64,000 nt of DNA, from positions 569,001 through 633,000 of the forward strand of contig NZ_CP019389.1 of NCBI RefSeq assembly GCF_001971785.1. The letters are read 5' to 3'. The notes under the pieces were generated by a model that saw only the letters and a program-made list of their open reading frames with translations, was not told the origin of the DNA and did not search any database. This document shows, in pieces, positions 17,867 through 59,063 of this stretch. Source of the DNA: Seonamhaeicola sp. S2-3 (GTDB lineage Bacteria; Bacteroidota; Bacteroidia; Flavobacteriales; Flavobacteriaceae). The number at the start of each line of letters is the position of its first letter. Within the stretch, counting starts at the first letter, position 1. The translations under genes were made by a program, and so were the position numbers.

Positions 17867-17910
17867 GTAACTGATGTTACATAACTTTAATAAATTAATA
17901 AGGATATTTG
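17867..17910 (+). promoter_or_regulatory. CRP/FNR-type operator and promoter of the rhodanese gene
   Basis: GTAACTGATGTTAC (17867-17880) is a perfect inverted repeat of GTAAC with a 4-base spacer. Exactly 22 bases later comes a -7-like element GATATTTG (17903-17910). With the usual start about 12 bases from the first base of the -7 element, the operator centre is near -41.5, as for a class II activator. The same arrangement recurs four times in the 44.8-52.2 kb cluster. Confidence 0.8.
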
Positions 17911-17925
17911 CCTAAAATTAGAAAA

Positions 17926-18231
17926 ATGGGACTACTTGATTCTTTATTTGGGAATAAAAAAAATATGATTGAAGATTTTAAAAACAGAGGTGCTATAATA
18001 GTTGATGTTAGAACACCTGATGAATTTCAACAAGGCGCCATTGCAGGGTCTAAAAATATTCCGTTACAAACATTAAACTCTAAAATTGATGAGCTTAGAA
18101 AACTGAACAAACCTGTAATTGCTTGTTGCGCTAGCGGTATGCGCTCTGGTACTGCATGCAGTATTTTAAGACCTCATGGTATTGAAGTTATTAATGGTGG
18201 TGGTTGGCAAAGTTTATCTAGAAAATTATAG
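17926..18231 (+). CDS. Rhodanese-like domain protein
   Basis: Single rhodanese domain, a sulfur-carrier or sulfurtransferase fold. The visible motifs are IIVDVRTPDEFQQGAIAGSKNIPLQ (family entry, seen as two pieces) and the active loop IACCASGMRSG, whose second Cys is the persulfide site. The ATG at 17926 is chosen over a TTG at 17908 because it gives the usual start MGLLDSLFG and lies downstream of the promoter. The stop overlaps that of the DUF4230 gene by 6 bases. The operator shared with the redox cluster suggests a role in sulfur or redox metabolism at low oxygen. Confidence 0.9.
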   Translation: MGLLDSLFGNKKNMIEDFKNRGAIIVDVRTPDEFQQGAIAGSKNIPLQTLNSKIDELRKLNKPVIACCASGMRSGTACSILRPHGIEVINGGGWQSLSRKL

Positions 18232-44855: not shown

Positions 44856-44899
44856 GTAACCCAAGTCACTTTTAGTTAATTACTTTTATTATAATTTTA
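44856..44899 (+). promoter_or_regulatory. CRP/FNR-type operator and promoter of the cytochrome c-DUF3365 unit
   Basis: GTAACCCAAGTCAC (44856-44869), one mismatch from GTAAC-N4-GTTAC. Exactly 22 bases on is TAATTTTA (44892-44899), a TAnnTTTR -7 element. The gene starts 64 bases later. Confidence 0.7.
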
Positions 44900-44963
44900 A
44901 AAATTATTACCTTATTAAACACTAATTAATTGAATTAAATAATTCAAAAAGCATCATTTTTAA

Positions 44964-45368
44964 ATGAATAAATTATTTACAATACTATTATTTACAGGAT
45001 TAATTTTCAGTTGTAACAACTCAAAAAAAGAGAAACCATCGGCTTTTGATACTCAAAATAAGGCTAATAATCACCCTGGAAAAAAACTAATGGAAACCAA
45101 CTGCTATTTATGTCACAACCCCACAGCTAGCAACCAAGATAGAGTTGGACCTCCTATGATTGCAATTAAAGAACAATACAAGGTAAATAATATTTCTAAA
45201 GAAGATTTTATAAAATCTATTCAAGATTGGGTAAAAAACCCTATTTCAGAAAATGCTAAAATGCCTAATGAGGTAAAACGTTTTGGGGTGATGCCTAAAC
45301 AATATTATCCAGAAAAAACCATAGCACAAATAGCCGAATATTTGTATGATTGTATTATACTGAAATAG
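44964..45368 (+). pseudogene. Cytochrome c-DUF3365 protein, 5' fragment (split by IS3)
   Basis: N-terminal half of an exported haem protein. Lipobox LIFSC near residue 17, then a class I cytochrome c domain with the haem motif CYLCH and a distal Met candidate in ENAKMPNEVKRFGVMPKQYY. The native reading ends at AEYLYD..., where the family usually continues into EQP-W. The last three codons (CTG AAA TAG) come from the IS3 end at 45361. The remaining gene continues after the element at 46755. Expected full product: cytochrome c joined to a DUF3365/Tll0287-like haem-binding domain. A truncated cytochrome could still be made from this fragment. Confidence 0.85.
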
Positions 45369-45457
45369 GTTGACTTTTTTTGGTTCATATTTAGCTGTTC
45401 AAAAGATTTTTTTTAGCCGTTTAGAAGGCAAAAAAATAGTTTGAACTAGGTTTGTTC

Positions 45458-46237
45458 TTAAATTGTAAGTTCAGGTAAATTTACATTATTTTTTCTATAG
45501 GATTTGTATTTGATGTTTGGATTTAAATGTACTTCAGCAGGTTTTCTTAGGTCCAGACTAAAATGGGTTCTCAAATTGTTATAAATATATACAGCTTGCT
45601 CCGTCATTTTTTGAGCTAAATCGGTGTTTTTAATAGTTTGTTTTAAGCCGTATTCGTATTTAAGTGTTCTATTAATACGTTCAGCAACAGCGTTTTCATA
45701 AGGGTCGTATTGTTCAGCCATACTCATTGTTATTCCGTTGCTTTCGGCAAACTCGGTATATTTAGGATTGCAGTATTGAAACCCTCTATCTGAGTGATGA
45801 ATAAGCTTTTGTTTAGGATATTTTCTATTTTTAATAGCCATAGCAAGCGCCTCTGTACAAAGCGATGTTCTCATATGATTATCGAGTTTATAGCCCATAA
45901 TTTGCTTAGAATAGGCGTCTGTGACTAAAGCTAGATAGTTGTGCCCATTTTCTGTTTTAATGTATGTTATATCGCTAACCCAAAGTTGTTCTGGTCGAGT
46001 AGGAACGTGGTCTTTTACCAGGTTCTTATATTTTTTGTACATATGGTTTGAGTTTGTAGTTGTGATGTAATTTTTAGTTTTAGGAATCAAAAGATTATTT
46101 AGCCTAAGGAAGCGATAGAACTTGTCTCTACCAATTTTAATATCAGCGTTTATAAAGTCCTGTTTTAGTTCTTTATGTAGCTTAATTCCACCAGTTTTAG
46201 AGCCTACTTTTTTACGGTAGTCCTTGACCATTTTCAT
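45458..46237 (-). CDS. IS3-family transposase OrfB
   Basis: Integrase core of the transposase. The DDE triad is visible: Asp in LWVSDITYIK, Asp in KLIHHSDRGFQYCN, Glu in DPYENAVAERINRTLKYEYG. An HTH_21 segment lies at the N-terminus (TGGIKLHKELKQDFINADIK). The frame stays open upstream of this ATG (GCFGISKQAFYKRLK) and overlaps orfA, so the working protein is an OrfAB fusion made by -1 frameshifting. Confidence 0.93.
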   Translation of the reverse strand: MKMVKDYRKKVGSKTGGIKLHKELKQDFINADIKIGRDKFYRFLRLNNLLIPKTKNYITTTNSNHMYKKYKNLVKDHVPTRPEQLWVSDITYIKTENGHNYLALVTDAYSKQIMGYKLDNHMRTSLCTEALAMAIKNRKYPKQKLIHHSDRGFQYCNPKYTEFAESNGITMSMAEQYDPYENAVAERINRTLKYEYGLKQTIKNTDLAQKMTEQAVYIYNNLRTHFSLDLRKPAEVHLNPNIKYKSYRKNNVNLPELTI

Positions 46238-46251
46238 TAGCTTCTGATGGT

Positions 46252-46710
46252 CTACTTCTTGTTTTTGTTGGGTTTTGAGTCTTTTGTAAAAGGCTTGTTT
46301 AGATATCCCAAAACATCCATAGAGCCATTTTCTTTTATACGCTGTTTTTTCTTTAGCTCTATCTCTTTTGCTAATGTTTTGGGCAATGACTTTTTTGACA
46401 TATCAACGCCTGTAATAAGTTCCATATCCGCGATAATGTCTTGTTGGAAGTCTTTTTGAAACTCAAGTTCTTCAATCTTTTCCTTTAACTTTTTAATTTC
46501 ATCGTTTTTACTCATACCTGTATTTTGTTGTACTAAGGTACTGTATTTTCTTAACCAATAGGAAATGGTTGTTCTGGGGACGTCGTATTTTTTAGAAGCT
46601 TGGTTGTTGGATAGTTGACCGTTTAGGATTTGGTCAACGACTAAAAGTTTGGTTTCTAAAGTGGCTTTTTGGTAACTTTTTTTTCGCCAGTGCTCATTTT
46701 GTGTTTTCAT
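46252..46710 (-). CDS. IS3-family transposase OrfA
   Basis: HTH protein of 152 residues that binds the element ends: TLETKLLVVDQILNGQLSNN and RTTISYWLRKYS form the helix-turn-helix, followed by a leucine-zipper-like helix (DEIKKLKEKIEELEFQKDFQ). The A6 run on the coding strand (T6 at 46345-46350) lies inside the overlap with the OrfB frame and is the likely slip site. The ends of orfA and the OrfB frame differ by -1 (473 bases between starts). Confidence 0.9.
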   Translation of the reverse strand: MKTQNEHWRKKSYQKATLETKLLVVDQILNGQLSNNQASKKYDVPRTTISYWLRKYSTLVQQNTGMSKNDEIKKLKEKIEELEFQKDFQQDIIADMELITGVDMSKKSLPKTLAKEIELKKKQRIKENGSMDVLGYLNKPFTKDSKPNKNKK

Positions 46711-46754
46711 AAGTGACTATAATTAATGGTTTAATTTTTAGTCAACCTATTTCA

Positions 46755-47337
46755 GGAAAGTTCAGATTTTGAAATTGAACAACCTAATTGGTATAAAAAC
46801 AACAATAAAAATAATACGCAAAAACAACCAACAACAACCAATTTTAAAGATTTACCATATGCCGATAGAGGATTAAAATATGCACTTACTACTAAAGCTG
46901 TTTTAGGCAAAAACTTAATGGGTAACATACAAAAAAAAGGTACTATTGAAGCGCTATCGTTTTGTAATGAAAGCGCCTATCCTTTAACCGATAGTATGGC
47001 AATAGTACATCAAGCCAATATAAAACGAGTTTCTGACAAACCCAGAAACCCTAACAACAAAGCTAGTTTAGAAGAATTAAATTACATTAATACTTTTAAA
47101 CAAGTAATTGCTAAAAACAATGAACCCCAACCCATAGTTAAAGAAACAGAAAATAATGTACATGTATATTACCCTATAATCACAAACAATATGTGTTTAC
47201 AATGCCACGGAAAACCAAATGAAACTATAGAAAAAGCTACCTTAAACAAAATCAACGATTTATACCCAAATGATAAAGCCATTGGGTATAATATCAATGA
47301 GGTAAGAGGTATTTGGAGTATTACTTTTGAAAAATAA
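46755..47337 (+). pseudogene. Cytochrome c-DUF3365 protein, 3' fragment
   Basis: After the IS3 end the plus strand reads SDFEIEQPNWYKNN, the joint that normally follows AEYLYD in these proteins, then a Gln/Asn/Thr-rich linker and a DUF3365 (Tll0287-like) domain: GTIEALSFCNESAYPLTDSM and the haem-type motif NNMCLQCHGKP near the end, followed by DKAIGYNINEVRGIWSITFE. An internal ATG at 46918 opens a 139-codon frame, but it lacks a signal peptide, so no useful product is expected. It overlaps or abuts the thioredoxin gene downstream. Confidence 0.85.
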
Positions 47338-47350
47338 AATCAAGTCAGGT

Positions 47351-47647
47351 ATGAGCAAATTTTCTGAAATAATAAATCAAGACAAACCCGTTTTAGTAGA
47401 TTTTTTTGCTGAATGGTGTGGACCATGCAAAATGATGAGTCCTATTTTAAAACAAGTTAAAGATAGTTTAGGAGACCGTGTTTCCATCATTAAAATAGAT
47501 GTAGACAAAAACCAAATCTTAGCCACAAAATATCAAATAAGAGGCGTACCAACACTCATGCTCTTTAAAAAAGGCAAACAAGTTTGGAGACAATCTGGTG
47601 TACTTCAAAAAGATGATATTTTAAACGTAATCACCTCCAATTTATAA
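47351..47647 (+). CDS. trxA: Thioredoxin
   Basis: Thioredoxin of 98 residues with the active site in FFAEWCGPCKMMSPIL and the cis-Pro in QIRGVPTLMLFKKGK. The ATG at 47351 is used: it gives the normal N-terminus, while the upstream TTG at 47327 lies inside the preceding reading frame. No signal peptide, so cytoplasmic. It follows the split cytochrome gene and would have been read from the operator-bearing promoter at 44856, now cut off by IS3. Confidence 0.92.
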   Translation: MSKFSEIINQDKPVLVDFFAEWCGPCKMMSPILKQVKDSLGDRVSIIKIDVDKNQILATKYQIRGVPTLMLFKKGKQVWRQSGVLQKDDILNVITSNL

Positions 47648-47839
47648 TGAATTTATCAGAAAATTTTGGGAGCAACAATAAGCAAAACAATGAAATGGCT
47701 GGGTTTTAGGAGAAGTCCCCTAAAAGCACATATTAACCAATTATATAATTTTTTTAATTCCGGATGATGGCAATACTACTTGTATAACCATGGTTTAAAT
47801 ACACTTTTTATAGAAGACTCTCCCAACTTAAAAAATTAA
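47647..47839 (+). pseudogene. Decayed small gene after thioredoxin
   Basis: The ATG overlaps the trxA stop (TAATG) and reads MNLSENFGSNNKQNNEMAGF before a stop. One base out of frame, the sequence MKWLGFRRSPLKAHINQLYN, then FFNSG, stop (TGA at 47765), WQYYLYNHGLNTLFIEDSPN and LKN continues to a stop at 47837. The coupled start and the protein-like composition of two consecutive segments suggest one former gene of about 63 codons with a one-base indel and a nonsense change. The family is not recognised. Confidence 0.5.
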
Positions 47840-47888
47840 CCTTATTCAGAATTTAATCATAAATTTCTTTTGAAAAAGCTACTTTACG
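47840..47888. other. Short A/T-rich gap before the peroxiredoxin promoter
   Basis: Nothing recognised here. With the decayed gene before it, the stretch from trxA to the peroxiredoxin gene holds no intact gene. Confidence 0.5.
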
Positions 47889-47932
47889 GTAACACATGTT
47901 ACATTGATATTTACTATTAACAACTACATTTA
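47889..47932 (+). promoter_or_regulatory. CRP/FNR-type operator and promoter of the peroxiredoxin gene
   Basis: GTAACACATGTTAC (47889-47902) is a perfect palindrome of the GTAAC-N4-GTTAC type. Exactly 22 bases later TACATTTA (47925-47932) is the -7 element. The ATG follows 28 bases on. Confidence 0.82.
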
Positions 47933-47960
47933 CCATAAATTAATTTAATAGTAATGTATC

Positions 47961-48683
47961 ATGAATAATTCAGAAACAACAAAAGAAACCGTATTTTCAA
48001 TGCCTAAAATTGGTGATAAAGCACCAGAATTTAAAGCAGTAACTACACAAGGAGAAATTAACTTCCCTTCAGATTATAAAGGTGAATGGACTATTTTATT
48101 TAGTCACCCTGCTGATTTTACACCAGTTTGTACTTCAGAGTTTATGACCTTTGCTCATCTTGAAGAAAAATTCAAAAAAGCCAATTGCAAATTAGTTGGC
48201 TTATCTGTTGATGGGTTATATAGCCATATTGCTTGGTTAAGAACCATAAAAGACAAAATTAAGTTCAACGGCATGGAAAATATTGAAGTTAAATTCCCTT
48301 TAATTGAAGATATAACCATGGAAGTTGCCAAAAAATATGGCATGATTCAACCAGGTGAACACCAAACACAAGCTGTAAGAGCCGTGTTTTTTATAGATCC
48401 CAACAGTATTGTTAGAGCCATTATTTACTATCCTTTAAGCTTAGGACGTAATTTTGACGAAATTTACAGAGCCTTAATTGCAATGCAAACCTCAGATAAA
48501 TTTAACGTAGCTACCCCTGCCGATTGGGAACCCGGAAAAGACGTTATAATATCTCCTGCTGGCTCTTGTGGTGTTGCTGAAGAACGAATGGAAGGTACAG
48601 ACGATTTAGAATGTGAAGACTGGTTTTTCTGCACTAAAAAACTAGATAAAGACTTGGTTTTAGGCGAAGTTTTAAAAAATTAA
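47961..48683 (+). CDS. Peroxiredoxin (Prx6-type)
   Basis: Thiol peroxidase of 240 residues, Prx6/AhpC-TSA family with C-terminal 1-Cys-Prx domain. Peroxidatic Cys in SHPADFTPVCTSEFMTFA; VKFPLIEDITMEVAKKYGM and VRAVFFIDPNSIVRAIIYYP are family blocks. The C-terminal tail has extra Cys (GSCGVAEER and DLECEDWFFCTKK), so a resolving Cys is possible. It detoxifies peroxides in the cytoplasm. Own operator-bearing promoter and own terminator. Confidence 0.93.
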   Translation: MNNSETTKETVFSMPKIGDKAPEFKAVTTQGEINFPSDYKGEWTILFSHPADFTPVCTSEFMTFAHLEEKFKKANCKLVGLSVDGLYSHIAWLRTIKDKIKFNGMENIEVKFPLIEDITMEVAKKYGMIQPGEHQTQAVRAVFFIDPNSIVRAIIYYPLSLGRNFDEIYRALIAMQTSDKFNVATPADWEPGKDVIISPAGSCGVAEERMEGTDDLECEDWFFCTKKLDKDLVLGEVLKN

Positions 48684-48705
48684 AACTTACATAATTTAGA
48701 TATTA

Positions 48706-48733
48706 AAGAGGCTGTTAATAATAACAGCCTCTT
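48706..48733 (+). terminator. Terminator of the peroxiredoxin gene
   Basis: AGAGGCTGTTA/TAACAGCCTCT, an 11-bp perfect stem (48707-48717, 48722-48732) with an ATAA loop. It abuts the operator of the next gene, 3 bases on. Confidence 0.85.
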
Positions 48734-48735
48734 CT

Positions 48736-48779
48736 GTAATATTTGTTACAAGCAATCTCAATAAAAGGCAATAATTTTG
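48736..48779 (+). promoter_or_regulatory. CRP/FNR-type operator and promoter of the osmC-cydAB unit
   Basis: GTAATATTTGTTAC (48736-48749), one mismatch from the consensus. Exactly 22 bases later TAATTTTG (48772-48779), a fitting -7 element. The OsmC ATG follows 22 bases on. Confidence 0.72.
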
Positions 48780-48801
48780 CTACATCAATAAAAACAATAA
48801 T

Positions 48802-49239
48802 ATGGCTACAGAACATTACTACCAAGTAAATGTAAATTGGAACAAAAACCGAAACGGCATTCTTACATCCAATAATTTAGACGAAAAAATAACCATTGCA
48901 ACGCCTCCAGAATTCCCTAAAGGCGAAGCCAATATTTGGTCTCCAGAGCATTACTTTGTTGCTGCAATAAACGGTTGTTTAATGACCACTTTTTTAGCTG
49001 TAGCTGAAAATTTTAAACTTGATTTTATTGATTTTGAATCGAATGCTGTTGGTAAGTTAGAAATGATAGATAGAAAGTTCGTAATGAGTGAAGTTATTTT
49101 AAACCCCGTAGTAACAATTTCTAATGAAGACCAAAAAGCACTGGCTATTAAAGTTCTAGAAAAATCTGAAAAAGCTTGCTTAATAACAAACTCTGTTAAA
49201 TCTAACATTAAAATGAATATTACTATAAAAGTAGTATAA
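48802..49239 (+). CDS. OsmC family protein
   Basis: OsmC/Ohr-fold protein of 145 residues. The first catalytic-Cys position is in AAINGCLMTTFLAVAEN, and the second Cys is in SEKACLITNSVKSNI. LKMDRK-type strand FVMSEVILNPVVTI lies between. Members reduce organic hydroperoxides or handle sulfur species; the exact substrate is unknown. It is 98 bases before cydA, with no terminator or new operator recognised in between, so the three may be cotranscribed. Confidence 0.9.
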   Translation: MATEHYYQVNVNWNKNRNGILTSNNLDEKITIATPPEFPKGEANIWSPEHYFVAAINGCLMTTFLAVAENFKLDFIDFESNAVGKLEMIDRKFVMSEVILNPVVTISNEDQKALAIKVLEKSEKACLITNSVKSNIKMNITIKVV

Positions 49240-49337
49240 AAAACTAATGTTTAAAATAGTCTATAAATACTAAATCTTGTATTTTTATATACTATAAACA
49301 CAACAAACAATTTACAAAAAACTAAAAAGGTTTTTTT

Positions 49338-50672
49338 ATGGAAGATATGCTCTTTTATGATAGAATGCAGTTTGCATTTACTATCACTTTTCACTACTTA
49401 TTTCCACAATTAACCATGGGGTTATCATTGATGATAGTCTATTTTAAATGGAAATTTTTACAATCTAAAGTCGAAAAGTATAACGATGCAGCAAAATTTT
49501 GGATGAAAATTTTCGCCCTTAATTTTGCTATGGGTGTTGTAACAGGCATCCCAATGGAATTTCAATTTGGTACCAATTGGGCTAAATTTTCAGAGTTAAC
49601 TGGTGGTGTAATAGGTCAAACATTGGCTATGGAGGGCATGTTTTCTTTCTTTTTAGAATCATCCTTTTTAGGACTCTTTTTATTTGGCGAAAAACTATTG
49701 GGTCATAAACTTCATTTTGTTACTGGTTTTCTAGTATTTTTAGGTTCATGGGCCAGTGGCTATTTAATTATTGCCACCCATTCATGGATGCAATACCCTG
49801 TTGGTTATGAAATAGTTGAAAACGGAAAGTTTGTTCTAAATAATTTTGGAGCACTCTTTTCAAACCCTTGGTTGTTACCTGCTTATTTACACAACCAGTT
49901 TGCCTCTATTATTACATCTTCATTTGTAGTTGCCGCCATTGGCGCCTTTTATATTTTAAACAATAAACACAGTGAATTTGGTAAACTTTTTGTAAAAACT
50001 GGAGTTATTTTTGGTTTAATATCTAGTGTACTTGTTGCTTTTCCAACTGGAGATTGGACTGCTAAAAATGTAGCTAAACACCAACCCGTAACCTTTGCCG
50101 CTATGGAAGGCATTTTTGAAACGGAAGATGGAGGCTCTGAAATTGTTCTTATTGGGCAACCTAACATTCTAGAAAAGAAACTAGATAACAAAATTGCTGT
50201 TCCTAATATTTTAAGTTTTTTAACTCATAAAGATTGGAATGCAGAAATTAAAGGTTTAAATGAATTTGATGAAAAAAATTACCCCACTAATATTCCTGGT
50301 TTATATTATTCATACCACATCATGGTAGGCTTAGGAACCATTTTTATTGGGCTAATGCTATTAGCTGCAATTCAACTTTACAGAAAAAAACTCTATAAAA
50401 CTAAATGGATTTTATGGGTACTAATGTTTATGTTACCATTCCCTTATATAGCAAATACAACAGGTTGGTACACCGCAGAATTAGGCAGACAGCCCTGGCT
50501 AGTTTATAATTTACTACGCACATCTGAAGGTGCTTCACCAACAGTATCCTCTGGTAATACATTATTTACTTTACTTGGTTTTATAGGTTTGTACTTACTT
50601 TTAGGTTTACTATTTTTAATGTTAGCAGGAAAAATAATTAACAAAGGCCCACAACTAAATCAACAACACTAA
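49338..50672 (+). CDS. cydA: Cytochrome bd ubiquinol oxidase subunit I
   Basis: Haem-bearing subunit of the high-affinity terminal oxidase in the inner membrane. 444 residues, about nine membrane helices. His ligand near the N-terminus in FHYLFPQLTMGLSL, QFGTNWAKFSELTG and MEGMFSFFLES next, the quinol-side signature AELGRQPWLVYNLLRT near 380, and a short Q-loop, as in the non-proteobacterial type. It supports respiration at low oxygen, in line with the redox genes around it. The cydB start follows 2 bases after the stop. Confidence 0.96.
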   Translation: MEDMLFYDRMQFAFTITFHYLFPQLTMGLSLMIVYFKWKFLQSKVEKYNDAAKFWMKIFALNFAMGVVTGIPMEFQFGTNWAKFSELTGGVIGQTLAMEGMFSFFLESSFLGLFLFGEKLLGHKLHFVTGFLVFLGSWASGYLIIATHSWMQYPVGYEIVENGKFVLNNFGALFSNPWLLPAYLHNQFASIITSSFVVAAIGAFYILNNKHSEFGKLFVKTGVIFGLISSVLVAFPTGDWTAKNVAKHQPVTFAAMEGIFETEDGGSEIVLIGQPNILEKKLDNKIAVPNILSFLTHKDWNAEIKGLNEFDEKNYPTNIPGLYYSYHIMVGLGTIFIGLMLLAAIQLYRKKLYKTKWILWVLMFMLPFPYIANTTGWYTAELGRQPWLVYNLLRTSEGASPTVSSGNTLFTLLGFIGLYLLLGLLFLMLAGKIINKGPQLNQQH

Positions 50673-50674
50673 TT

Positions 50675-51751
50675 ATGGAATTATTTTGGTATATCGTTTT
50701 AATGACCATGCTAGCCATTTATGTAATTTTAGATGGTTACGATTTTGGTGCAGGCATTATTCACTTGTTTTTTGCAAAAAAAGAAAAAGATAAAAAGGCC
50801 ATTACAAATGCTATAGGCCCCTTTTGGGATGCCAACGAAGTATGGCTAATTGCTGCTGGTGGCGTCTTATTTTTTGCATTCCCTACGTTATACGCTTCCT
50901 CTTTTAGCGGATTTTATTTACCCCTAATTATGATTTTATGGCTACTCATTTTTAGAGCTATTGGATTAGAATTAAGAGGACAAATACACAATAAAATGTG
51001 GACTAGCATTTGGGATAAAGCCTTTGGAATTTCTAGTTTATTACTTGCTTTATTTTTTGGTGTTGCCTTAGGTAATGTTGTTAGAGGTGTTAATTTAGGT
51101 AATGTTGTAAATGGTGTTTCTACACAAGAAGCGCACTATTTCTTTTTACCATTATGGAACCCTACTTTTAGTCCGCAAACCGAACAATTAGGTATCATAG
51201 ACTGGTTTACACTATTATTAGGTATTATTGGTGTTATTGCACTAACCATACATGGTGCTAATTGGATTATTTTTAAAACAAACTCAAGCTTAAATGAAAA
51301 ACTTAAAAAAGTAGTCTTCACTCTTAGTTTTGTTCTATTAGTATTAGTTATTATTTCTCTTTTCATTTGGCATATTATAGAACCTAAACCTTTTCATAAC
51401 TTCATTCAAAACCCTTGGTTATGGATTTTTCCTATCATCACCTTTACTGGTTTATTTGGGTTGTTTAGAGTGAGATCATTTAAAAAACATGGAAAAGGAT
51501 TCTTATTTTCATCTTTGTTTTTATTTGGAGGATTAACCTCTACGGTAGCTTCAATTTTCCCTAAAGTTTTACCATCAACAAATAATGTTAATCCAGACCT
51601 AACATTATACAATGTTGCTGCAGATGATTACGGATTATCTGTTGGTATTTCTTGGTTTGTTATTGCAGTTATTTTGGTAATTGCATATTTCACCATTCAA
51701 TACCGTGTTTTTAAAGGTAAGATGGATGATGTTGGCTACGGAGAACATTAA
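50675..51751 (+). CDS. cydB: Cytochrome bd ubiquinol oxidase subunit II
   Basis: 358 residues, about eight to nine membrane helices. Family blocks: VILDGYDFGAGIIHLFFAKK, AIGPFWDANEVWLIAAGGVL and ALTIHGANWIIFKTN. It pairs with CydA to form the oxidase. Length is normal. Confidence 0.96.
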   Translation: MELFWYIVLMTMLAIYVILDGYDFGAGIIHLFFAKKEKDKKAITNAIGPFWDANEVWLIAAGGVLFFAFPTLYASSFSGFYLPLIMILWLLIFRAIGLELRGQIHNKMWTSIWDKAFGISSLLLALFFGVALGNVVRGVNLGNVVNGVSTQEAHYFFLPLWNPTFSPQTEQLGIIDWFTLLLGIIGVIALTIHGANWIIFKTNSSLNEKLKKVVFTLSFVLLVLVIISLFIWHIIEPKPFHNFIQNPWLWIFPIITFTGLFGLFRVRSFKKHGKGFLFSSLFLFGGLTSTVASIFPKVLPSTNNVNPDLTLYNVAADDYGLSVGISWFVIAVILVIAYFTIQYRVFKGKMDDVGYGEH

Positions 51752-51769
51752 TTAAAAACTTACTAAATT

Positions 51770-52069
51770 ATGACAGGCACTTTAATTTCTTTAATAAGTG
51801 TTTTTGTAGGTATTATTGGTGCAAATTTAACAGGTTATTTCAAAAGAAAATATTCTTTTGGCCTTACAGGAAATACCTTAGTAGGTGTTTTTGGCAGCAT
51901 TTTATTAATTAAAACTTTTGGAAGATTAGGTTTTAATCCTTGGTCAATTATGAACAATGGAGATTTTAATGGTTTACGGTTAACTATCAATATCATTGTA
52001 TCTGCTTTAGGAGGTATATTAGGGCTTATAGCTGCTAAAAAAGTATACTTTAAAATGAATAAAGAATAA
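51770..52069 (+). CDS. Small three-helix membrane protein, GlsB/YeaQ-like
   Basis: 99 residues with about three membrane helices and Gly-rich turns (LVGVFGSILLIK, IIVSALGGILGLIAAKKVYF). The layout resembles the GlsB/YeaQ/YmgE transglycosylase-associated membrane proteins but is longer, and the match is weak. It is 18 bases after cydB on the same strand, so it is probably made with the oxidase and might be an accessory subunit; that is inference. Confidence 0.65.
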   Translation: MTGTLISLISVFVGIIGANLTGYFKRKYSFGLTGNTLVGVFGSILLIKTFGRLGFNPWSIMNNGDFNGLRLTINIIVSALGGILGLIAAKKVYFKMNKE

Positions 52070-52093
52070 CACTTGCTAAAGCCCTCTTCTTGT

Positions 52094-52137
52094 GTAACCT
52101 AAGTTACTAGTAACTATAAAAAAGCTAAGTACCTTTA
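52094..52137 (+). promoter_or_regulatory. CRP/FNR-type operator and promoter of the SQR-like gene
   Basis: GTAACCTAAGTTAC (52094-52107) is a perfect GTAAC-N4-GTTAC palindrome; 22 bases later TACCTTTA (52130-52137) is the -7 element. The ATG follows 15 bases on. Confidence 0.82.
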
Positions 52138-52152
52138 ATAAAAATTAAGGTC

Positions 52153-53610
52153 ATGGCTAAAATTGTCATTCTAGGCGCAGGTATTTCAGGACACGTAGCT
52201 GCTACACATTTACGTAGAAAACTCCCTAAAAAACACGAAGTTGTTGTTGTTTCTCCTAACAGTAATTATCAATGGATTCCATCAAATATTTGGGTAGGAA
52301 TTGGTAGAATGAAGTCCAAAAAAATACTATTTCCGCTTGCTCCACTTTACAAAAAAAAGGGCATTAACTACAAACAAGCCAAAGCGGTAACATTTTACCC
52401 AGAAGGAGACAAAAAAGAACAAAAACCCTACATTGTATCCGAATATGTTACTGGCGAAAAAAAAGGACAACAAGAAAAAGTAACATATGACTACCTAATT
52501 AATGCCACAGGACCAAAACTTAATTTTGAAGCTACAGAAGGCTTAATTCCTGGTAAAAACAAAACTTACTCCGTTTGCACATATACACATGCTAATCATG
52601 CTTGGGAAGGATTAAGTGCCTTAATTGAAAGCATGAAAAAAGGCAAAAAAGCCAAAATACTAATTGGTACAGGACATGCAAAATCTACATGCCAAGGAGC
52701 TGCTTTTGAATATATTTTAAACGTAGAAAAAGAATTGAAACGTCATAAAGTACGTGATATGGCCGAAATTACCTGGATTTCTAACGAGTACAGCCTTGGT
52801 GATTTTGGAATGGATGGTATGTTAATGAGCTACGGGGATATGATTATGAAATCTAGCGAGCTAGTAGAAATGATTTTTGAAGACAGAGGTATAAAATGGA
52901 TTTTAGGAGCTGGAGTAAATAAAATTGAAGATGGTATAGCTTATTATGAAAATTTAGAAGGCGAACATAAAGTAGAAACTTATGACTTCGCCATGTTAAT
53001 TCCAGCATTTTCAGGACATGGTTTTAAAGCCTATGATAAAAACAATCAAGATATTACTAATAAGCTTTTTAAGGGTTTCATGATTGTAGATGCAGATTAC
53101 ACACCAAAACCTTATGAAGAATGGACCGTTCAAGATTGGCCAGAAACCTATCAAAACCCTAACTATAAAAACATTTTTGCTCCAGGTATAGCATTTGCGC
53201 CACCACACACCATCTCAAAACCTAGAAAAAGTAAAAACGGAACTGATATTTTTCCTGCACCTCCTAGAACGGGTATGCCTTCAGGAATTACCTCCAAATT
53301 AGTAGCCGATAATATAATTGATGCCATTAAAAAAGGAGATAACAGTTTGCAGCATAAAGGCTCTATGGGTAATATGGGAGCTGCTTGTATTGCTTCTGCA
53401 GGATTTGGTTTTTGGAGTGGTAGCGGAGTAAGCATCACAACGTTTCCTATTGTTCCAGATTTTGTGAAATATCCAGATAGTCATGGGCGCCATTTAGGAA
53501 AAACCTTTGGCTCTATTGGGCTAGCAGGTCATTGGCTTAAATTAATGCTACATCATGCCTTTTTGTGGAAAGCAAAAATGAGACCTTTTTGGTGGCTAAT
53601 TCCTGAGTAA
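52153..53610 (+). CDS. SQR-like FAD-dependent NAD(P)/sulfide oxidoreductase
   Basis: Flavoprotein of 485 residues. FAD-binding GxGxxG in IVILGAGISGHVAATHLRRK at the N-terminus, then HEVVVVSPNSNYQWIPSNIW, as in sulfide:quinone oxidoreductases. A second dinucleotide region lies near 170-190 (KILIGTGHAKSTCQG) and a C-terminal amphipathic region with GIAFAPPHTISKPRK. Two Cys that could form the active disulfide are in GHAKSTCQGAAFEY and GAACIASAGFG. It probably passes electrons to quinone at the membrane; sulfide as donor is likely but not proven. Own operator; followed by a 44-residue protein gene. Confidence 0.85.
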   Translation: MAKIVILGAGISGHVAATHLRRKLPKKHEVVVVSPNSNYQWIPSNIWVGIGRMKSKKILFPLAPLYKKKGINYKQAKAVTFYPEGDKKEQKPYIVSEYVTGEKKGQQEKVTYDYLINATGPKLNFEATEGLIPGKNKTYSVCTYTHANHAWEGLSALIESMKKGKKAKILIGTGHAKSTCQGAAFEYILNVEKELKRHKVRDMAEITWISNEYSLGDFGMDGMLMSYGDMIMKSSELVEMIFEDRGIKWILGAGVNKIEDGIAYYENLEGEHKVETYDFAMLIPAFSGHGFKAYDKNNQDITNKLFKGFMIVDADYTPKPYEEWTVQDWPETYQNPNYKNIFAPGIAFAPPHTISKPRKSKNGTDIFPAPPRTGMPSGITSKLVADNIIDAIKKGDNSLQHKGSMGNMGAACIASAGFGFWSGSGVSITTFPIVPDFVKYPDSHGRHLGKTFGSIGLAGHWLKLMLHHAFLWKAKMRPFWWLIPE

Positions 53611-53988: not shown

Positions 53989-55074
53989 TTAAAATTCAAC
54001 CGTTTTTATAAACTCATTACCTACATTATAATCTATTTTTTTAAGATGTTGTAATCTACCTATAATACAAGCTGGATGTGTTTTGAATTTTTTAGCATAA
54101 AAAACAATGTCTTCAACAAACAATTCGTCATTACTTAATATTTCAGCTTCTTCTTGTTTAGATAATAACCATTTAGCTGCAAAATCATCAGCTTCTTTTT
54201 CATATTCTTTTAATTCTCCTTCTATCTCAATGTTCTCAATAGAAATATATTTTTTACCATGTAACAGAATATGGCCAATTTCATGAAAGAATGTAAACCA
54301 AAAACTATCATTCCTTTTATAACGCCCGCTTAATTGAATTAGAGGCGTATCACCAATCCATCTGGTTGAACCATGTATTGGGGCTTTAGGCAGGCATGGA
54401 GTATAAACAAGTTTAACACCAACATTGGCACAAATAGCTCGTAATTCTGAAAAGAAATTATCAGGTTGATTCACCATTAATTCTTTGATTTTTGGTAAAC
54501 TTTTTTTCAAAGCACTTTGACTGTATTTAGCTACTGTCATATTTTGTGCTTGAATTTCTCCATGACGTAACCACGAAGCAATTGCTAAAGCATTGTCTTG
54601 ATTTTTCAAAGAAATTCTAAAAGCTACTTGAGTTTTTTGATTAAAATAATAATCTTCAAATGCCTTTAAGGATGCTATACCAAAATACTCAAATAGATTA
54701 ATTACTTTTTCTTCAATTTTTCTAGTTGCCGCTACCCAACCATGATTTGCCATTTTAGCATAGGGAAACGCTTTAGCCCATTCTTTTGCTGAATCGATAT
54801 TCTTTTGAAACTCAATTCTAGCCTTATATTCATCATAGTTCTTTTGAGCTTCCATCCAGAAGTGAGCAGGCACTTTCAAAACCTGTTCAAATAGAATTGC
54901 CATTTCTGATGTTATGGCACTTTTCCCTTTGAGCACAGCAGAAATTGTTTTTTCAGGTTTCCCTGTTTTTACCGCAAATTCTTTTGCTCCCATTTGTTTC
55001 TCTTCCAATATTTCTTTAAGAAACTCTGATGGATGTGTTACCGATTCGGGATAATATTCATTAACCGATGCCAT
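53989..55074 (-). CDS. higA: HigA-type antitoxin fused to ImmA/IrrE metallopeptidase
   Basis: 361-residue fusion. Residues 10-80 are an XRE-type HTH of HigA antitoxins (HPSEFLKEILEEKQMGAKEF, ISAVLKGKSAITSEMAILFE). Residues 200-320 form an ImmA/IrrE-like zinc peptidase domain with the HExxH in FTFFHEIGHILLHGKKY and a further acidic ligand region EKEADDFAAKWLLSK. It lies downstream of the toxin gene in higB-higA order, 15 bases apart. The peptidase may cleave the antitoxin or another protein; this is inference from ImmA/IrrE. Neither half is truncated. Confidence 0.9.
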   Translation of the reverse strand: MASVNEYYPESVTHPSEFLKEILEEKQMGAKEFAVKTGKPEKTISAVLKGKSAITSEMAILFEQVLKVPAHFWMEAQKNYDEYKARIEFQKNIDSAKEWAKAFPYAKMANHGWVAATRKIEEKVINLFEYFGIASLKAFEDYYFNQKTQVAFRISLKNQDNALAIASWLRHGEIQAQNMTVAKYSQSALKKSLPKIKELMVNQPDNFFSELRAICANVGVKLVYTPCLPKAPIHGSTRWIGDTPLIQLSGRYKRNDSFWFTFFHEIGHILLHGKKYISIENIEIEGELKEYEKEADDFAAKWLLSKQEEAEILSNDELFVEDIVFYAKKFKTHPACIIGRLQHLKKIDYNVGNEFIKTVEF

Positions 55075-55594: not shown

Positions 55595-56839
55595 TTAATC
55601 TTCCAATAGTTTTAAAATTTTGTTTCCAATTTGGATATCCAAATTACCAAATTCATCCAAAACCGAAACAAATCCCATTTTGCATTGATGCTCTATCCTT
55701 CCAATTTCTGTGTTATCTTGTTTTGAATAATCATCGGTATTATATGTTTTAAATTCATTTTCTATTTCATTGCCTGGATATAGTAAAACAGCCTTTTTTG
55801 CATCCCAAAAACGGCAATATGTATACATTTGTCGTAAATCACCTACCGAAGCAGAACTGTTTGATGGTCTCTTCCATTTTGTATCAATAATTAAGGTATT
55901 GCTACCAATTCTCAACACTATATCAGGCCTTAATAAATTGCTTCCCCAAAATAATTTTGATTCTTGCCCAGAAACGTGAATATCATTATTCAGACAGGTT
56001 CTTTGTAGTTGTTTTAAGATGTATTCTTCCCACAATTGATTCATATCGAAAAGAAGAGATAACATTTTTTCTTTACCGCTTGAAATGTCTGGTGAAAAAT
56101 TTAAAATAATTAATCTTGCCAACTCTAAAGCATATGAATAATCTTTAGTTTTTCTATTCAGCTTTATATTCTCTAATTGACTTTTAGTAATATTTGAATT
56201 TGAGACTTCAGGAAAATTTAATTGAACTCTTTTTAAATAATCATGCAATCGTGTTCCTTTCGTAAAATAACTTACAATTGTCAATGCTTTACACAGCACT
56301 TGGTGTAGTAAATGATTCTCATCATATACTTGATGTGTGGTATAAAATCGTTCTTTATGAATTATATTTTTTTGAAGATGGCCCGCAAACTCTAATTTAC
56401 CTTTTAGACTATACACATTTTTTGTTTCCTTACGGTATTTTTTAACTAATCCTTTTCTAAGTAAGCCATCTATTTCTTGTAAGTACAACTCAAAATAAAC
56501 TTCTAAGAGATTTAAATTTTTACGATTAACATGAGCCACTCCCACCGAACTCGCTTTAAGTTTGCCACAAGCTTTTAACATATTCAGCAAAACACCACTC
56601 CATCTACTATCGTCATCATCCTTATCTGCCTTTGGGTGAATTTGAATAACTAAACCATCTACTTGAATAATACCTACGTATTGATTAAACTTTAATCCCT
56701 TTGCAATTGGTTCAAAATATTTTCCTTCATGATACTCATTAAGTTTTAATAAAGCATCGAGATGTTCTTGTTTAAAACCATTTGTACCAACTAATAAACG
56801 TTGATGTTCAAAAACTGATATTTGTTTAATTTTCTTCAA
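55595..56839 (-). CDS. mcrC: McrC-like nuclease subunit
   Basis: McrBC-type restriction subunit carrying the nuclease. 414 residues. The C-terminal PD-(D/E)xK fold is seen in NLLRPDIVLRIG and TLIIDTKWKRPS (Asp, Asp, Lys). N-terminal domain with ISVFEHQRLLVG and YVGIIQVDGLVIQIHPKADK is typical for McrC. It overlaps mcrB by 14 bases, so the two are translationally coupled. With McrB it would cleave modified DNA; the modification recognised cannot be read from the sequence. Confidence 0.93.
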   Translation of the reverse strand: MKKIKQISVFEHQRLLVGTNGFKQEHLDALLKLNEYHEGKYFEPIAKGLKFNQYVGIIQVDGLVIQIHPKADKDDDDSRWSGVLLNMLKACGKLKASSVGVAHVNRKNLNLLEVYFELYLQEIDGLLRKGLVKKYRKETKNVYSLKGKLEFAGHLQKNIIHKERFYTTHQVYDENHLLHQVLCKALTIVSYFTKGTRLHDYLKRVQLNFPEVSNSNITKSQLENIKLNRKTKDYSYALELARLIILNFSPDISSGKEKMLSLLFDMNQLWEEYILKQLQRTCLNNDIHVSGQESKLFWGSNLLRPDIVLRIGSNTLIIDTKWKRPSNSSASVGDLRQMYTYCRFWDAKKAVLLYPGNEIENEFKTYNTDDYSKQDNTEIGRIEHQCKMGFVSVLDEFGNLDIQIGNKILKLLED

Positions 56840-59063
56840 CAGACTTATTTAGTAATTGACTTAAAGCTTCATGAATATTATTTGTATTAACAGCCTTTAA
56901 ACTATAACTATCTACTTTAAAATCTTCTTGATTCTCATAGCCAAAATCAGCAAAATTAATTTTATCATTCTTAATTCTTTCTACAAACCCTTTCCCTAAA
57001 ACAAGACCTATTTTTCCATAATCCCCATAAAAATATTCTTGTAGCAATGGTATAATCTTATTGTTAAAAGCCATAACTAAGTCATCAAGCGTATTTACAT
57101 TGAAAAAGTATGAATGCCCTATTGTATGGTCTCTATCTATTAACAATTCTATTCTTTGATTAATTGTTTGTAGTATTTCTGCTAAAGAGAAACCTTCAAC
57201 TGAAAAATCTTTTATAATTTCATAATTTGGCATCATTTCTTTAAACTCAAACCGACGACGTAATGCCGTATCAAGAGCTTCAACAGAACGGTCTGCTGTA
57301 TTCATGGTTCCATAAATATCTAAATTTGACGGCACAGAAAACGCTTCTTTAGAATATGGCAGTCTAACACTCATTTCATTAATTTCTCCTTGACGCTTAT
57401 CGGTTTCTATAAGCGTAATTAATTCTCCAAAAATAGCAGACACATTACCTCTATTTATTTCGTCTATAAAAATGGCATACCTATTATCTGGATCATTTTT
57501 TGCGCGTAAACATAAACGCTTAAACACACCATCTTCAACCGTATAACCTAAATTGGAAGATTCTTCTTCGTTTTCTGAAAAAACAGGCTTAATACCTTCT
57601 ATAAAATCTTCATAAGCAAAAGATTGATGAAATGTAACAAAATCGTAATGTCTAATGGACTTTACTGGACTAACCTTAAAGTTATCCACCTCATCCTTAA
57701 TTTTAAATATTTCTGGTGCTTGTTCTTTAAGCTCCGCATCAAGTAACACCCAAGATTTATCTTCGGTTTTATCAAAAATAAGCGGTGCTTGTCTCTGTTT
57801 ATAATTTACGCTTGTAGATTCTTCAATTGTATGCATTTGTAAAGTACCCCAAATAGTTGCTCTTACATTTTTAGACACACTCAAGTTTGCTTTAGTTGCA
57901 ACCCATCTATTATCTAAAACATCACTCACTTTTGATTTCCCTTCTTCTAGCAATGCTAAAGTAATGGCTTGCCACCAAGTAATATTTGACACTACTTCTT
58001 CAAAATATTTCTCCTTAGATATTGCTTGCTCTTTTAATGTGTATTTCTCGAATAATGTATCCTTTAAGAAATGTGTTTTTCCAGTACCTGGTGGACCGTA
58101 GAGTATTTGGTTTATGGGTTTTGATTGCAGTTGTTTAAAATTACGATTATATATTTCTTTTGTCTCTTTAATTTCAGTAAGTGGTTCTTGATTTAAAAAT
58201 TGTATATATGCTTTTATTGCTGCTGAATAAAAACCTTTTTCACCATAAGATTTTTTATGATAAGCGTATTTTCCTTTAGGGTCTTTTTGATTAAGTTTAA
58301 GATCTTCGTAAAGTTCATGAAGTACATTAATATCTTCTTCTGTATAAACAGCTATTTTAAATTCATTAATTAATATTTTTATAGCTCTTAAATAAGAACT
58401 GGCTTTGCTACTACCAACCTCTGCATTTTTCTCTAACCATTCCTTGAATTGGGTTTCTTTAGAGTTATAATTGCCATAATGTTCCCACAACTTCTTTGTG
58501 AAAGAAAAGTAATCTTCTTCGTTTTTGTAAGAAAGTATAAAACTGTTTAAATCTCCATATCTAGTTGGAGTTATATTATTTGGATACAAAGAGTTTGCTA
58601 TAAATCTTAAAGCTTCACTTTTAAAAATATTTATTACTTTATAATCACTGTATAAAAAAGCTATTTTACACTTATATGCATCACCTAAATCTATATTTTC
58701 AATTGGATTAAGATTATTTTCACTAGCTAATTCAGCTATATTTATTATTATTTTTTTTATAGAATTAAATGCTTCAAAAGAGGTATTTCCATATTTAGTA
58801 TGCCACGCATAAATACCATCATTAGTTCTATTTGATGCTGGTTCTGTTTTAGAATCCTCACTCATTTTATAAATGCCAAATTTATAAGAACTCCCTCCAG
58901 ATATGCTTCCTAAGTCTCTAGTAATATGTTCTAACCAATAGCAAAATGAGTTTTCTCTTTTTGTATCTGTATACTGCTCTAAAGTCATGACTTTTAGTTT
59001 CTCTATGGGCCATGTCTTTAAAAATTCTTCTTTTAATTTATGTAGTTTTTCATTCATATTCAC
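56826..59063 (-). CDS. mcrB: McrB-like AAA+ GTPase
   Basis: Motor subunit of a McrBC-type system, 745 residues. The AAA+ domain is in the C-terminal half: Walker A QILYGPPGTGKTHFL near 335, Walker B YAIFIDEINRGNVSAIF, sensor-like DIYGTMNTADRSVEAL with the McrB NTADRS motif, then RRRFEFKEMMP. The first 300 residues form a separate recognition region unlike the E. coli McrB N-terminus: YWLEHITRDLGSISGGSSY plus a helical part reading SKASSYLRAIKILINEFK, rather like an integrase SAM-like domain. Start overlaps the 43-codon ORF by 14 bases. Confidence 0.92.
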   Translation of the reverse strand: MNMNEKLHKLKEEFLKTWPIEKLKVMTLEQYTDTKRENSFCYWLEHITRDLGSISGGSSYKFGIYKMSEDSKTEPASNRTNDGIYAWHTKYGNTSFEAFNSIKKIIINIAELASENNLNPIENIDLGDAYKCKIAFLYSDYKVINIFKSEALRFIANSLYPNNITPTRYGDLNSFILSYKNEEDYFSFTKKLWEHYGNYNSKETQFKEWLEKNAEVGSSKASSYLRAIKILINEFKIAVYTEEDINVLHELYEDLKLNQKDPKGKYAYHKKSYGEKGFYSAAIKAYIQFLNQEPLTEIKETKEIYNRNFKQLQSKPINQILYGPPGTGKTHFLKDTLFEKYTLKEQAISKEKYFEEVVSNITWWQAITLALLEEGKSKVSDVLDNRWVATKANLSVSKNVRATIWGTLQMHTIEESTSVNYKQRQAPLIFDKTEDKSWVLLDAELKEQAPEIFKIKDEVDNFKVSPVKSIRHYDFVTFHQSFAYEDFIEGIKPVFSENEEESSNLGYTVEDGVFKRLCLRAKNDPDNRYAIFIDEINRGNVSAIFGELITLIETDKRQGEINEMSVRLPYSKEAFSVPSNLDIYGTMNTADRSVEALDTALRRRFEFKEMMPNYEIIKDFSVEGFSLAEILQTINQRIELLIDRDHTIGHSYFFNVNTLDDLVMAFNNKIIPLLQEYFYGDYGKIGLVLGKGFVERIKNDKINFADFGYENQEDFKVDSYSLKAVNTNNIHEALSQLLNKSVEEN

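Follow-up and report, generated by a model that had tools for sequence, protein, structure and literature searches.

The window analysed here comprises bases 569,001-633,000 (64,000 nucleotides) of the 3,752,836-base single-contig genome of Seonamhaeicola sp. S2-3. Five promoters within it carry a palindromic operator, GTAAC-N4-GTTAC, at a fixed distance from a -7 box, and the genes behind them encode a rhodanese, a cytochrome c-Tll0287 protein, a peroxiredoxin, an OsmC-like protein together with cytochrome bd oxidase (cydAB), and a flavoprotein similar to sulfide:quinone reductase (SQR). They are probably part of a regulon for the handling of sulfide and reactive sulfur, with about 12 candidate promoters in all. 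The operator is very probably read by an activator of the Crp/Fnr family whose gene lies outside the window, in another part of the genome. A bolder proposal, for which we put the chances a shade below even, is that this protein senses persulfide or polysulfide directly, having given up the cyclic-nucleotide pocket for a triad of cysteines (C78 and, where a short pocket helix ends, C84 and C85), and that it is the main activator of sulfide defence in the Flavobacteriaceae and in some other Bacteroidota.

Operators and their distance from the -7 box

Searching the window for GTAACNNNNGTTAC (GTAAC-N4-GTTAC) with up to one mismatch gives nine matches, against a mean of 1.81 in shuffled sequence, and none of 100 shuffles reaches nine. 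The five promoters named in the initial annotation are confirmed among them. Four (44856, 47889, 48736 and 52094) have TAnnTTTR exactly 22 bases downstream of the palindrome, and at the rhodanese promoter (17867) GATATTTG stands at this distance in its place. The OsmC promoter (48736) has one mismatch, in a GTAAT half-site. The other four of the nine matches (10583, 13411, 32763 and 32943) have no -7 box at 21-22 bases on either strand. The listed frame of the rhodanese begins with a TTG at 17908, inside the -7 box, and the ATG at 17926 is the likelier start.

A flavobacterial map of transcription start sites places the TAnnTTTG box at -12 to -5 (PMC9723704). With the box in this position, the 14-base palindrome is centred at -41.5 where the spacing is 22 bases and at -40.5 where it is 21; the centre near -41.5 proposed in the initial annotation follows from the 22-base spacing and the published box position. 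The promoters have the layout of class II promoters, with a site centre near -41.5, as placed by the box, and a -7 element at a fixed distance. A centre at -41.5 is the usual one for class II activators.

Across the genome, GTRACNNNNGTYAC (GTRAC-N4-GTYAC) occurs without mismatch at 11 places. A strict TAnnTTTR lies 22 bases downstream of seven and 21 bases downstream of three, and the eleventh is the rhodanese site with GATATTTG at 22. The chance of finding at least 10 boxed sites among 11 is about 2e-19 at the box frequency of the window background, an optimistic figure, as intergenic DNA and promoters are more AT-rich. The genome-wide scan called for in the initial annotation thus puts the exact sites neither at random places nor at random spacing, and bears out a single regulon with near-fixed spacing (10 of the 11 exact sites boxed at 21-22); the claim of exactly 22 bases holds for all five window promoters and has to be relaxed for the genome, where three of the 11 are at 21. 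Adding the OsmC promoter, with its one mismatch, brings the candidate promoters to 12 (Table 1), so that the regulon is larger than the five first described, all of which stand. A composite pattern of palindrome, spacer and box with up to two mismatches has 24 matches, against 15 for its reversed control, and its weak matches are therefore mostly chance; two-mismatch matches were not counted as sites, and one of them (904911) starts within a coding frame.

The arrangement recurs in relatives. Named loci are those of the best 80 of 589 relatives, and all counts on named loci refer to these 80. Within their 1.49 Mb, exact GTAAC-N4-GTTAC is followed by TAnnTTTG in 36 cases at a distance of 21 or 22 bases; the mean for other distances is 0.07. 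The reversed motif with up to one mismatch has TAnnTTTG at 21-22 bases in none of 173 strand-places, and a wider reversed pattern has it in one of 692. In this control a separate peak appears at distance 30, with 15 of the 173 strand-places; our guess is a conserved coding stretch.

A candidate regulator and its conservation

Scanning the genome for the Crp helix-turn-helix family gives four matches, and the best candidate for the regulator is one of them, a 211-amino-acid Crp/Fnr protein. It lies outside the window, as the initial annotation stated, and is a CRP/FNR gene with an adjoining site of its own, which that annotation suggested looking for: its stop codon directly abuts the operator of the Sulf_transp-DUF6691-TauE operon, and about 1.8 kb beyond that operator lies the operator of the dioxygenase-rhodanese gene. 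Both domains score over their curated cut-offs (cNMP_binding 35 versus 27.5 bits, HTH_Crp_2 33.1 versus 27 bits). The closest orthologue among the 80 comes from a Seonamhaeicola metagenome-assembled genome (Flavobacteriaceae) and is 89% identical. Operator and -7 box stand directly before the regulator gene itself in two loci (L145, 9947; L168, 9937), which suggests autoregulation in some species.

As far as sequence comparison can tell, the pairing of regulator and site across species is strong. When up to two mismatches and a spacing of 20-23 are allowed, 25 of 30 family loci, among them that of the present genome, have a site close behind the regulator. At a stricter threshold of up to one mismatch and spacing 21-22, it is found within 420 bases of the regulator stop in 55 of the 80 named loci, and the reversed motif is found behind the regulator in none of the 80. 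The dioxygenase test covers the 67 of the 80 loci with a match of at least 55% identity reaching near its start, and at the same threshold 52 of these have a site before the gene; the reversed-motif control covered the regulator test alone. Genes behind exact sites in the named loci, which are centred on the regulator, resemble proteins of the query set from this genome in 79 of 81 cases; outside the 81, 10 of 91 exact sites have no ATG frame of at least 60 amino acids within 200 bases. One of the two genes outside the query set (L140, 11712-13405) has an exact operator, and its product combines 4Fe-4S and NrfD (polysulfide reductase) domains, a further target with a link to sulfur. The family, named, SQR and phylum sets of loci may share species and are not independent.

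The genes of the window cluster themselves are found beside the regulator in other genera. In loci of Tenacibaculum (L149, L169, L172) and Polaribacter (L143, L146, L175) the cytochrome c-Tll0287 and thioredoxin genes come immediately after it; two of the Tenacibaculum loci, L169 and L172, continue with cydAB, and L172 has SQR too. A search that was not centred on the regulator gave SQR orthologues of at least 79% identity in 21 other family genomes, every one of which has a regulator match (21/21); four more distant copies (56-59%) were inspected and stand outside this count. The site is directly before SQR in nine of the 21, and cydB-like genes lie upstream of it in five others. The same search shows a site before every TolC-type gene within reach (13/13).

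At the level of whole genomes, those with a strong regulator match (117) have 1.93 motifs per Mb and those with a weak match or none (32) have 0.76, in a comparison that treats the genomes as unrelated. The weak group consists of 17 genomes without a match and of 15 of the 132 matching genomes, which were set by hand (best E weaker than about 1e-45). Beyond the family, relatives of the regulator (E 1e-30 or better) turn up in 109 of the 296 genomes of a phylum sample. Among 30 loci fetched from these 109, the site is present in 13, and the recognition helix reads SRVV[IV]SR in 27, SREVISR in two and was not found by pattern in one.

All 80 named orthologues have the helix SRVV[IV]SR. Alignments indicate that Arg180 and Arg185 of CRP are kept and that Glu181 is replaced by Val (80/80), as in NtcA. 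The NtcA site is GTA-N8-TAC. The third operator base seems to be read loosely, since position 3 is G in 21 of the 52 sites before dioxygenase genes. GTAAC sites are described as accompanying the loss of Glu181, and the operator GTAACnnnnGTTAC has been linked to the replacement of this residue by Pro in HcpR2 (Rodionov et al. 2005, PMC1274295); this published consensus makes the likeness to CRP/FNR-family sites more specific than the initial annotation had it. A check of co-evolution between helix and motif found no palindrome with box for the relatives that keep Glu181, of which there were two only (L235 and L242).

In the effector domain, C78 is present in 80 of the 80 named regulators and the C84-C85 pair in 78. 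By alignment the three cysteines fall in the stretch that holds the cyclic AMP phosphate in CRP. Glu72 and Arg82 of the CRP pocket are not kept, and residue counts on the alignment put Met80 and Lys90 in their places. No cysteine precedes C78 in the regulator, and the N-terminal [4Fe-4S] ligands of FNR are missing. The predicted structure of one orthologue (L103) has a Crp fold with a mean pLDDT of 89.3 and resembles many Crp-type structures in a fold search. It puts C78 just before helix 80-85 and C84-C85 at its end, with the block of residues 81-90 (mean 71) among the least certain. Not every regulator has the full triad. Two of the 80 regulators are without one cysteine of the pair, and a further one (L229, genome G119), with an intact helix and beside YeeE and DUF6691 genes, has C84 and C85 both replaced; the TolC gene of that genome keeps its site (L199) despite this loss. 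The G119 case therefore argues against both cysteines being needed everywhere, and it has slightly lowered our estimate for a reading by cysteines, from an even balance to just under it.

A probable sulfide defence and its alternatives

The best-conserved targets are the persulfide dioxygenase-rhodanese and the YeeE/YedE-type and TauE transporters, and they are accompanied by the SQR-like flavoprotein, rhodanese, thioredoxin and cytochrome bd. The dioxygenase-rhodanese matches the solved structures 3tp9 (E 4.2e-63) and 3r2u (E 2.9e-55), the second of which we take to be a staphylococcal protein of the persulfide dioxygenase-rhodanese kind. The SQR-like flavoprotein matches the solved SQR 3sz0 (E 6.7e-33), and two of its cysteines align with the solved enzyme. 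Judged from sequence alone, the set thus has the SQR, persulfide dioxygenase and sulfur transporters of a sulfide/persulfide regulon. In Acinetobacter, FisR and BigR govern a sulfide response made up of SQR, persulfide dioxygenase, TauE and YeeE/YedE, with CydAB raised as well (PMC7315123); the enzyme set being the same, we take the regulon here to be a defence against reactive sulfur and sulfide. The initial annotation had offered a response to low oxygen, sulfide or peroxide; of these, the gene set favours sulfide, and reactive sulfur with it, over low oxygen or peroxide as such.

Under the proposed mechanism, a dimer of the regulator would bind GTRAC-N4-RTYAC centred at -41.5 or -40.5 and activate, in class II fashion, promoters of the primary sigma factor that have a TAnnTTTG-type -7 box. 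The SQR-like enzyme would oxidise sulfide to persulfide, thioredoxin and rhodanese would move the sulfane sulfur, the persulfide dioxygenase-rhodanese would oxidise it, the TauE and YeeE/YedE proteins would move the products, and a sulfide-resistant cytochrome bd would keep respiration running. The signal would most likely be persulfide or polysulfide, possibly read directly by C78, C84 and C85. Sequence establishes the sites, their spacing, the gene content and the pairing of site with regulator gene across species; activation we infer from the operator position at -41.5, and the same goes for the signal, for the chemistry of the cysteines and for what each enzyme does.

Several results weigh against this reading. 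The palindrome is genome-wide no commoner than its reversed form, either in exact copies (11 versus 12) or, for GTAACNNNNGTTAC with one mismatch, in looser ones (153 versus 173), and therefore placement alone carries the signal; in the density comparison, too, the palindrome alone is not in excess, the reversed motif reaching 2.83 and 2.19 per Mb in the strong and weak groups. At the threshold used, no site was found behind the regulator in 25 of the 80 named loci or before the dioxygenase in 15 of the 67, and none stands directly before 12 of the 21 SQR orthologues. Other copies of the peroxiredoxin have a site directly before the gene in only three of 11 cases. The SQR-like protein itself, at 59.5 bits, is far below the curated SQR cut-off of 525, and the efflux pair, the DUF983 protein, the ArsR-ArsP operon and the 35-amino-acid protein are targets with no clear role in sulfur metabolism. 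Finally, the cytochrome c-Tll0287 gene, a single open frame in six relatives, is interrupted here by an insertion sequence at 45360-46755 (presumably IS3-like), so that the intact cytochrome c-DUF3365-thioredoxin unit of the initial annotation has to be given up. The insertion may thus have taken the thioredoxin gene behind it out of the control of the 44856 promoter.

It is unlikely that the sites mark a low-oxygen regulon of FNR type, in which cytochromes would be raised as oxygen falls and the sulfur genes would come along because sulfide appears there. Such a regulon would account for an operator of CRP/FNR type and for the sites of cydAB and the cytochrome c genes, but the most conserved targets are the persulfide dioxygenase, YeeE/YedE, TauE and SQR-like genes, persulfide dioxygenase uses oxygen, and the regulator has none of the N-terminal iron-sulfur ligands of FNR, as it has no cysteine before C78. 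Slightly less probable still is a regulon for peroxide or for thiol redox state in general, of which the sulfur genes would be only one part. The conserved cysteines could react with peroxide too, and in the window such sites are carried by, or lie upstream of, genes for peroxiredoxin, OsmC and thioredoxin; however, the peroxiredoxin site is kept in three of 11 other copies, as against the dioxygenase site in 52 of 67 loci.

A nitrosative-stress regulon of the HcpR2 type is very improbable, even though the operator GTAACnnnnGTTAC equals the published HcpR2 consensus (PMC1274295). No Prismane (hcp) gene was found in the genome by a search that finds hcp in five of 14 control genomes; residue 181 is Val, not Pro, in 80 of the 80 named orthologues; and the solved Porphyromonas HcpR comes only at rank 36 by fold, with 15% identity. 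Membership in HcpR2 was set aside, despite the identical motif, on the missing hcp and on Val in place of Pro.

We give as little credence to the view that the palindrome serves a repressor or is a product of chance within promoter sequence. That palindrome counts alone do not exceed those of the reversed pattern across the genome would suit this idea, but the peak in spacing and the conservation do not, and a centre at -41.5 is usual for class II activators. Least probable of all is that another Crp/Fnr protein reads the sites, such as the one at 2,839,727-2,840,398 of the genome, which has Pro at the place of Glu181 (helix SRPTLNI) as in HcpR2: this candidate was set aside because it has matches in few family genomes (47 of 149, and one of the 17 that lack the regulator) and no GTRAC-N4-GTYAC site in the surrounding 8 kb, and three genomes (G001, G011 and G028) have no match to it yet have TolC sites.

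Regulation of sulfide and reactive-sulfur genes by the candidate Crp/Fnr activator is thus the reading kept here, and its features are collected in Table 1. Adjoining the redox cluster of the window are a gene with a helix-turn-helix and an M78-peptidase (IrrE-type) domain (53989-55074) and one for a large AAA protein (56826-59063), neither with an operator site upstream. Elsewhere in the genome, a GTGAC-N4-GTCAC operator (L066, 1395-3441; from genome position 1,945,927 down) is followed by genes for an ArsR-type regulator, a thioredoxin-like protein, a further protein that looks OsmC-like and an ArsP permease. With its gene placed under a Crp-type site, the ArsR-type regulator might form a second regulatory tier. 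Another such operator (L067, 6545-6960; from 2,583,544 on), with a -7 box at 22, precedes a 35-amino-acid frame of membrane type, and a cobalamin riboswitch and a 623-amino-acid frame, TonB-receptor-like by its start, follow.

Table 1. Operators, genes and candidate promoters of the regulon, with positions in the window unless marked as genome positions.
Feature	Position	Strand	Remarks
Operator GTAACTGATGTTAC, rhodanese promoter	17867..17880	+	-7 box GATATTTG at 17903-17910; sequence search
Rhodanese gene	17926..18231	+	Pfam Rhodanese
Operator GTAACCCAAGTCAC, cytochrome c-Tll0287 promoter	44856..44869	+	-7 box TAATTTTA at 44892-44899; sequence search
Cytochrome c part of cytochrome c-Tll0287 gene	44964..45368	+	Cytochrom_C; frame enters insertion sequence
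Insertion sequence	45360..46755	-	16-base inverted ends, two transposase frames (HTH, rve)
Tll0287-like (DUF3365) part, cut off from its promoter by the insertion	46918..47337	+	family match
Thioredoxin	47327..47647	+	family match
Operator GTAACACATGTTAC, peroxiredoxin promoter	47889..47902	+	-7 box TACATTTA at 47925-47932; sequence search
Peroxiredoxin	47961..48683	+	AhpC-TSA plus 1-cysPrx_C
Operator GTAATATTTGTTAC, OsmC-cydAB promoter	48736..48749	+	-7 box TAATTTTG at 48772-48779; sequence search
OsmC-like protein	48802..49239	+	family match
Cytochrome bd oxidase subunit I (cydA)	49338..50672	+	family match
Cytochrome bd oxidase subunit II (cydB)	50675..51751	+	family match
99-amino-acid protein behind cydB	51770..52069	+	no family above cut-off
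Operator GTAACCTAAGTTAC, SQR-like promoter	52094..52107	+	-7 box TACCTTTA at 52130-52137; sequence search
SQR-like flavoprotein	52153..53610	+	similar to solved sulfide:quinone reductases
Promoter of outer-membrane efflux and membrane-fusion pair	genome 527,360		
Promoter of second cytochrome c	genome 528,013		
Promoter of DUF983 protein	genome 657,922		
Promoter of ArsR-thioredoxin-OsmC-ArsP gene row	genome 1,945,927		
Promoter of 35-amino-acid protein before cobalamin riboswitch	genome 2,583,544		
Promoter of metallo-beta-lactamase-rhodanese protein (persulfide dioxygenase-rhodanese)	genome 2,640,661		
Promoter of Sulf_transp-DUF6691-TauE row	genome 2,642,498		
Candidate regulator, 211-amino-acid Crp/Fnr protein	genome 2,642,512-2,643,147	-	outside window

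Relation to known regulators

Each element is known on its own: the motif in the DNA, the Crp/Fnr family, the set of enzymes. In the literature searched, the regulators described for sulfide and persulfide are repressors of the CsoR, ArsR and MarR types, sigma54 activators and the peroxide sensors OxyR and PerR (PMC8148161, PMC9774590), with HcpR described for NO. Among the open-access papers listed, mostly as titles and the beginnings of abstracts, there was no Crp/Fnr protein for sulfide, which is no proof of novelty, and no work on sulfide regulation in the Flavobacteriaceae. If the reading presented here is true, it would add a new regulator family to sulfide sensing and provide a well-conserved example of a class II activator working with the Bacteroidota -7 box. 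Since many species have the regulator gene next to a promoter that it would itself control, direct tests of DNA binding, of the signal and of what the cysteines do are possible.

NtcA, the cyanobacterial global nitrogen regulator, is among the nearest solved relatives of the protein (E 8.2e-14) and has Arg-Val at the positions of CRP Arg180-Glu181; its site, GTA-N8-TAC, is contained in GTAAC-N4-GTTAC. However, the regulator reaches only 44 bits against the NCBIfam NtcA cut-off of 244.95, and the targets of NtcA are nitrogen genes. The top sequence match among solved structures is 3dv8, a Crp/Fnr protein of Eubacterium rectale (E 9.9e-23), which has cysteines at two of the three places, but its helix, SHREVITR, keeps Glu181. 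HcpR2 is likewise a Crp/Fnr regulator, with the consensus GTAACnnnnGTTAC and Glu181 lost (PMC1274295); there, Pro at 181 goes with hcp, whereas here Val is found, hcp is absent and the targets are sulfur genes.

By their targets, the closest systems belong to other regulator families. FisR and BigR of Acinetobacter baumannii are described as governing SQR, persulfide dioxygenase, TauE and YeeE/YedE, with cytochrome bd raised by sulfide, but these regulators, a sigma54 activator and a repressor of the ArsR type, lie outside the Crp/Fnr family (PMC7315123). CstR of Staphylococcus aureus places a sulfurtransferase, persulfide dioxygenase and SQR under a persulfide sensor that uses cysteines, as proposed here for the Crp/Fnr protein, but CstR is a repressor of the CsoR family (PMC8148161, PMC9774590).

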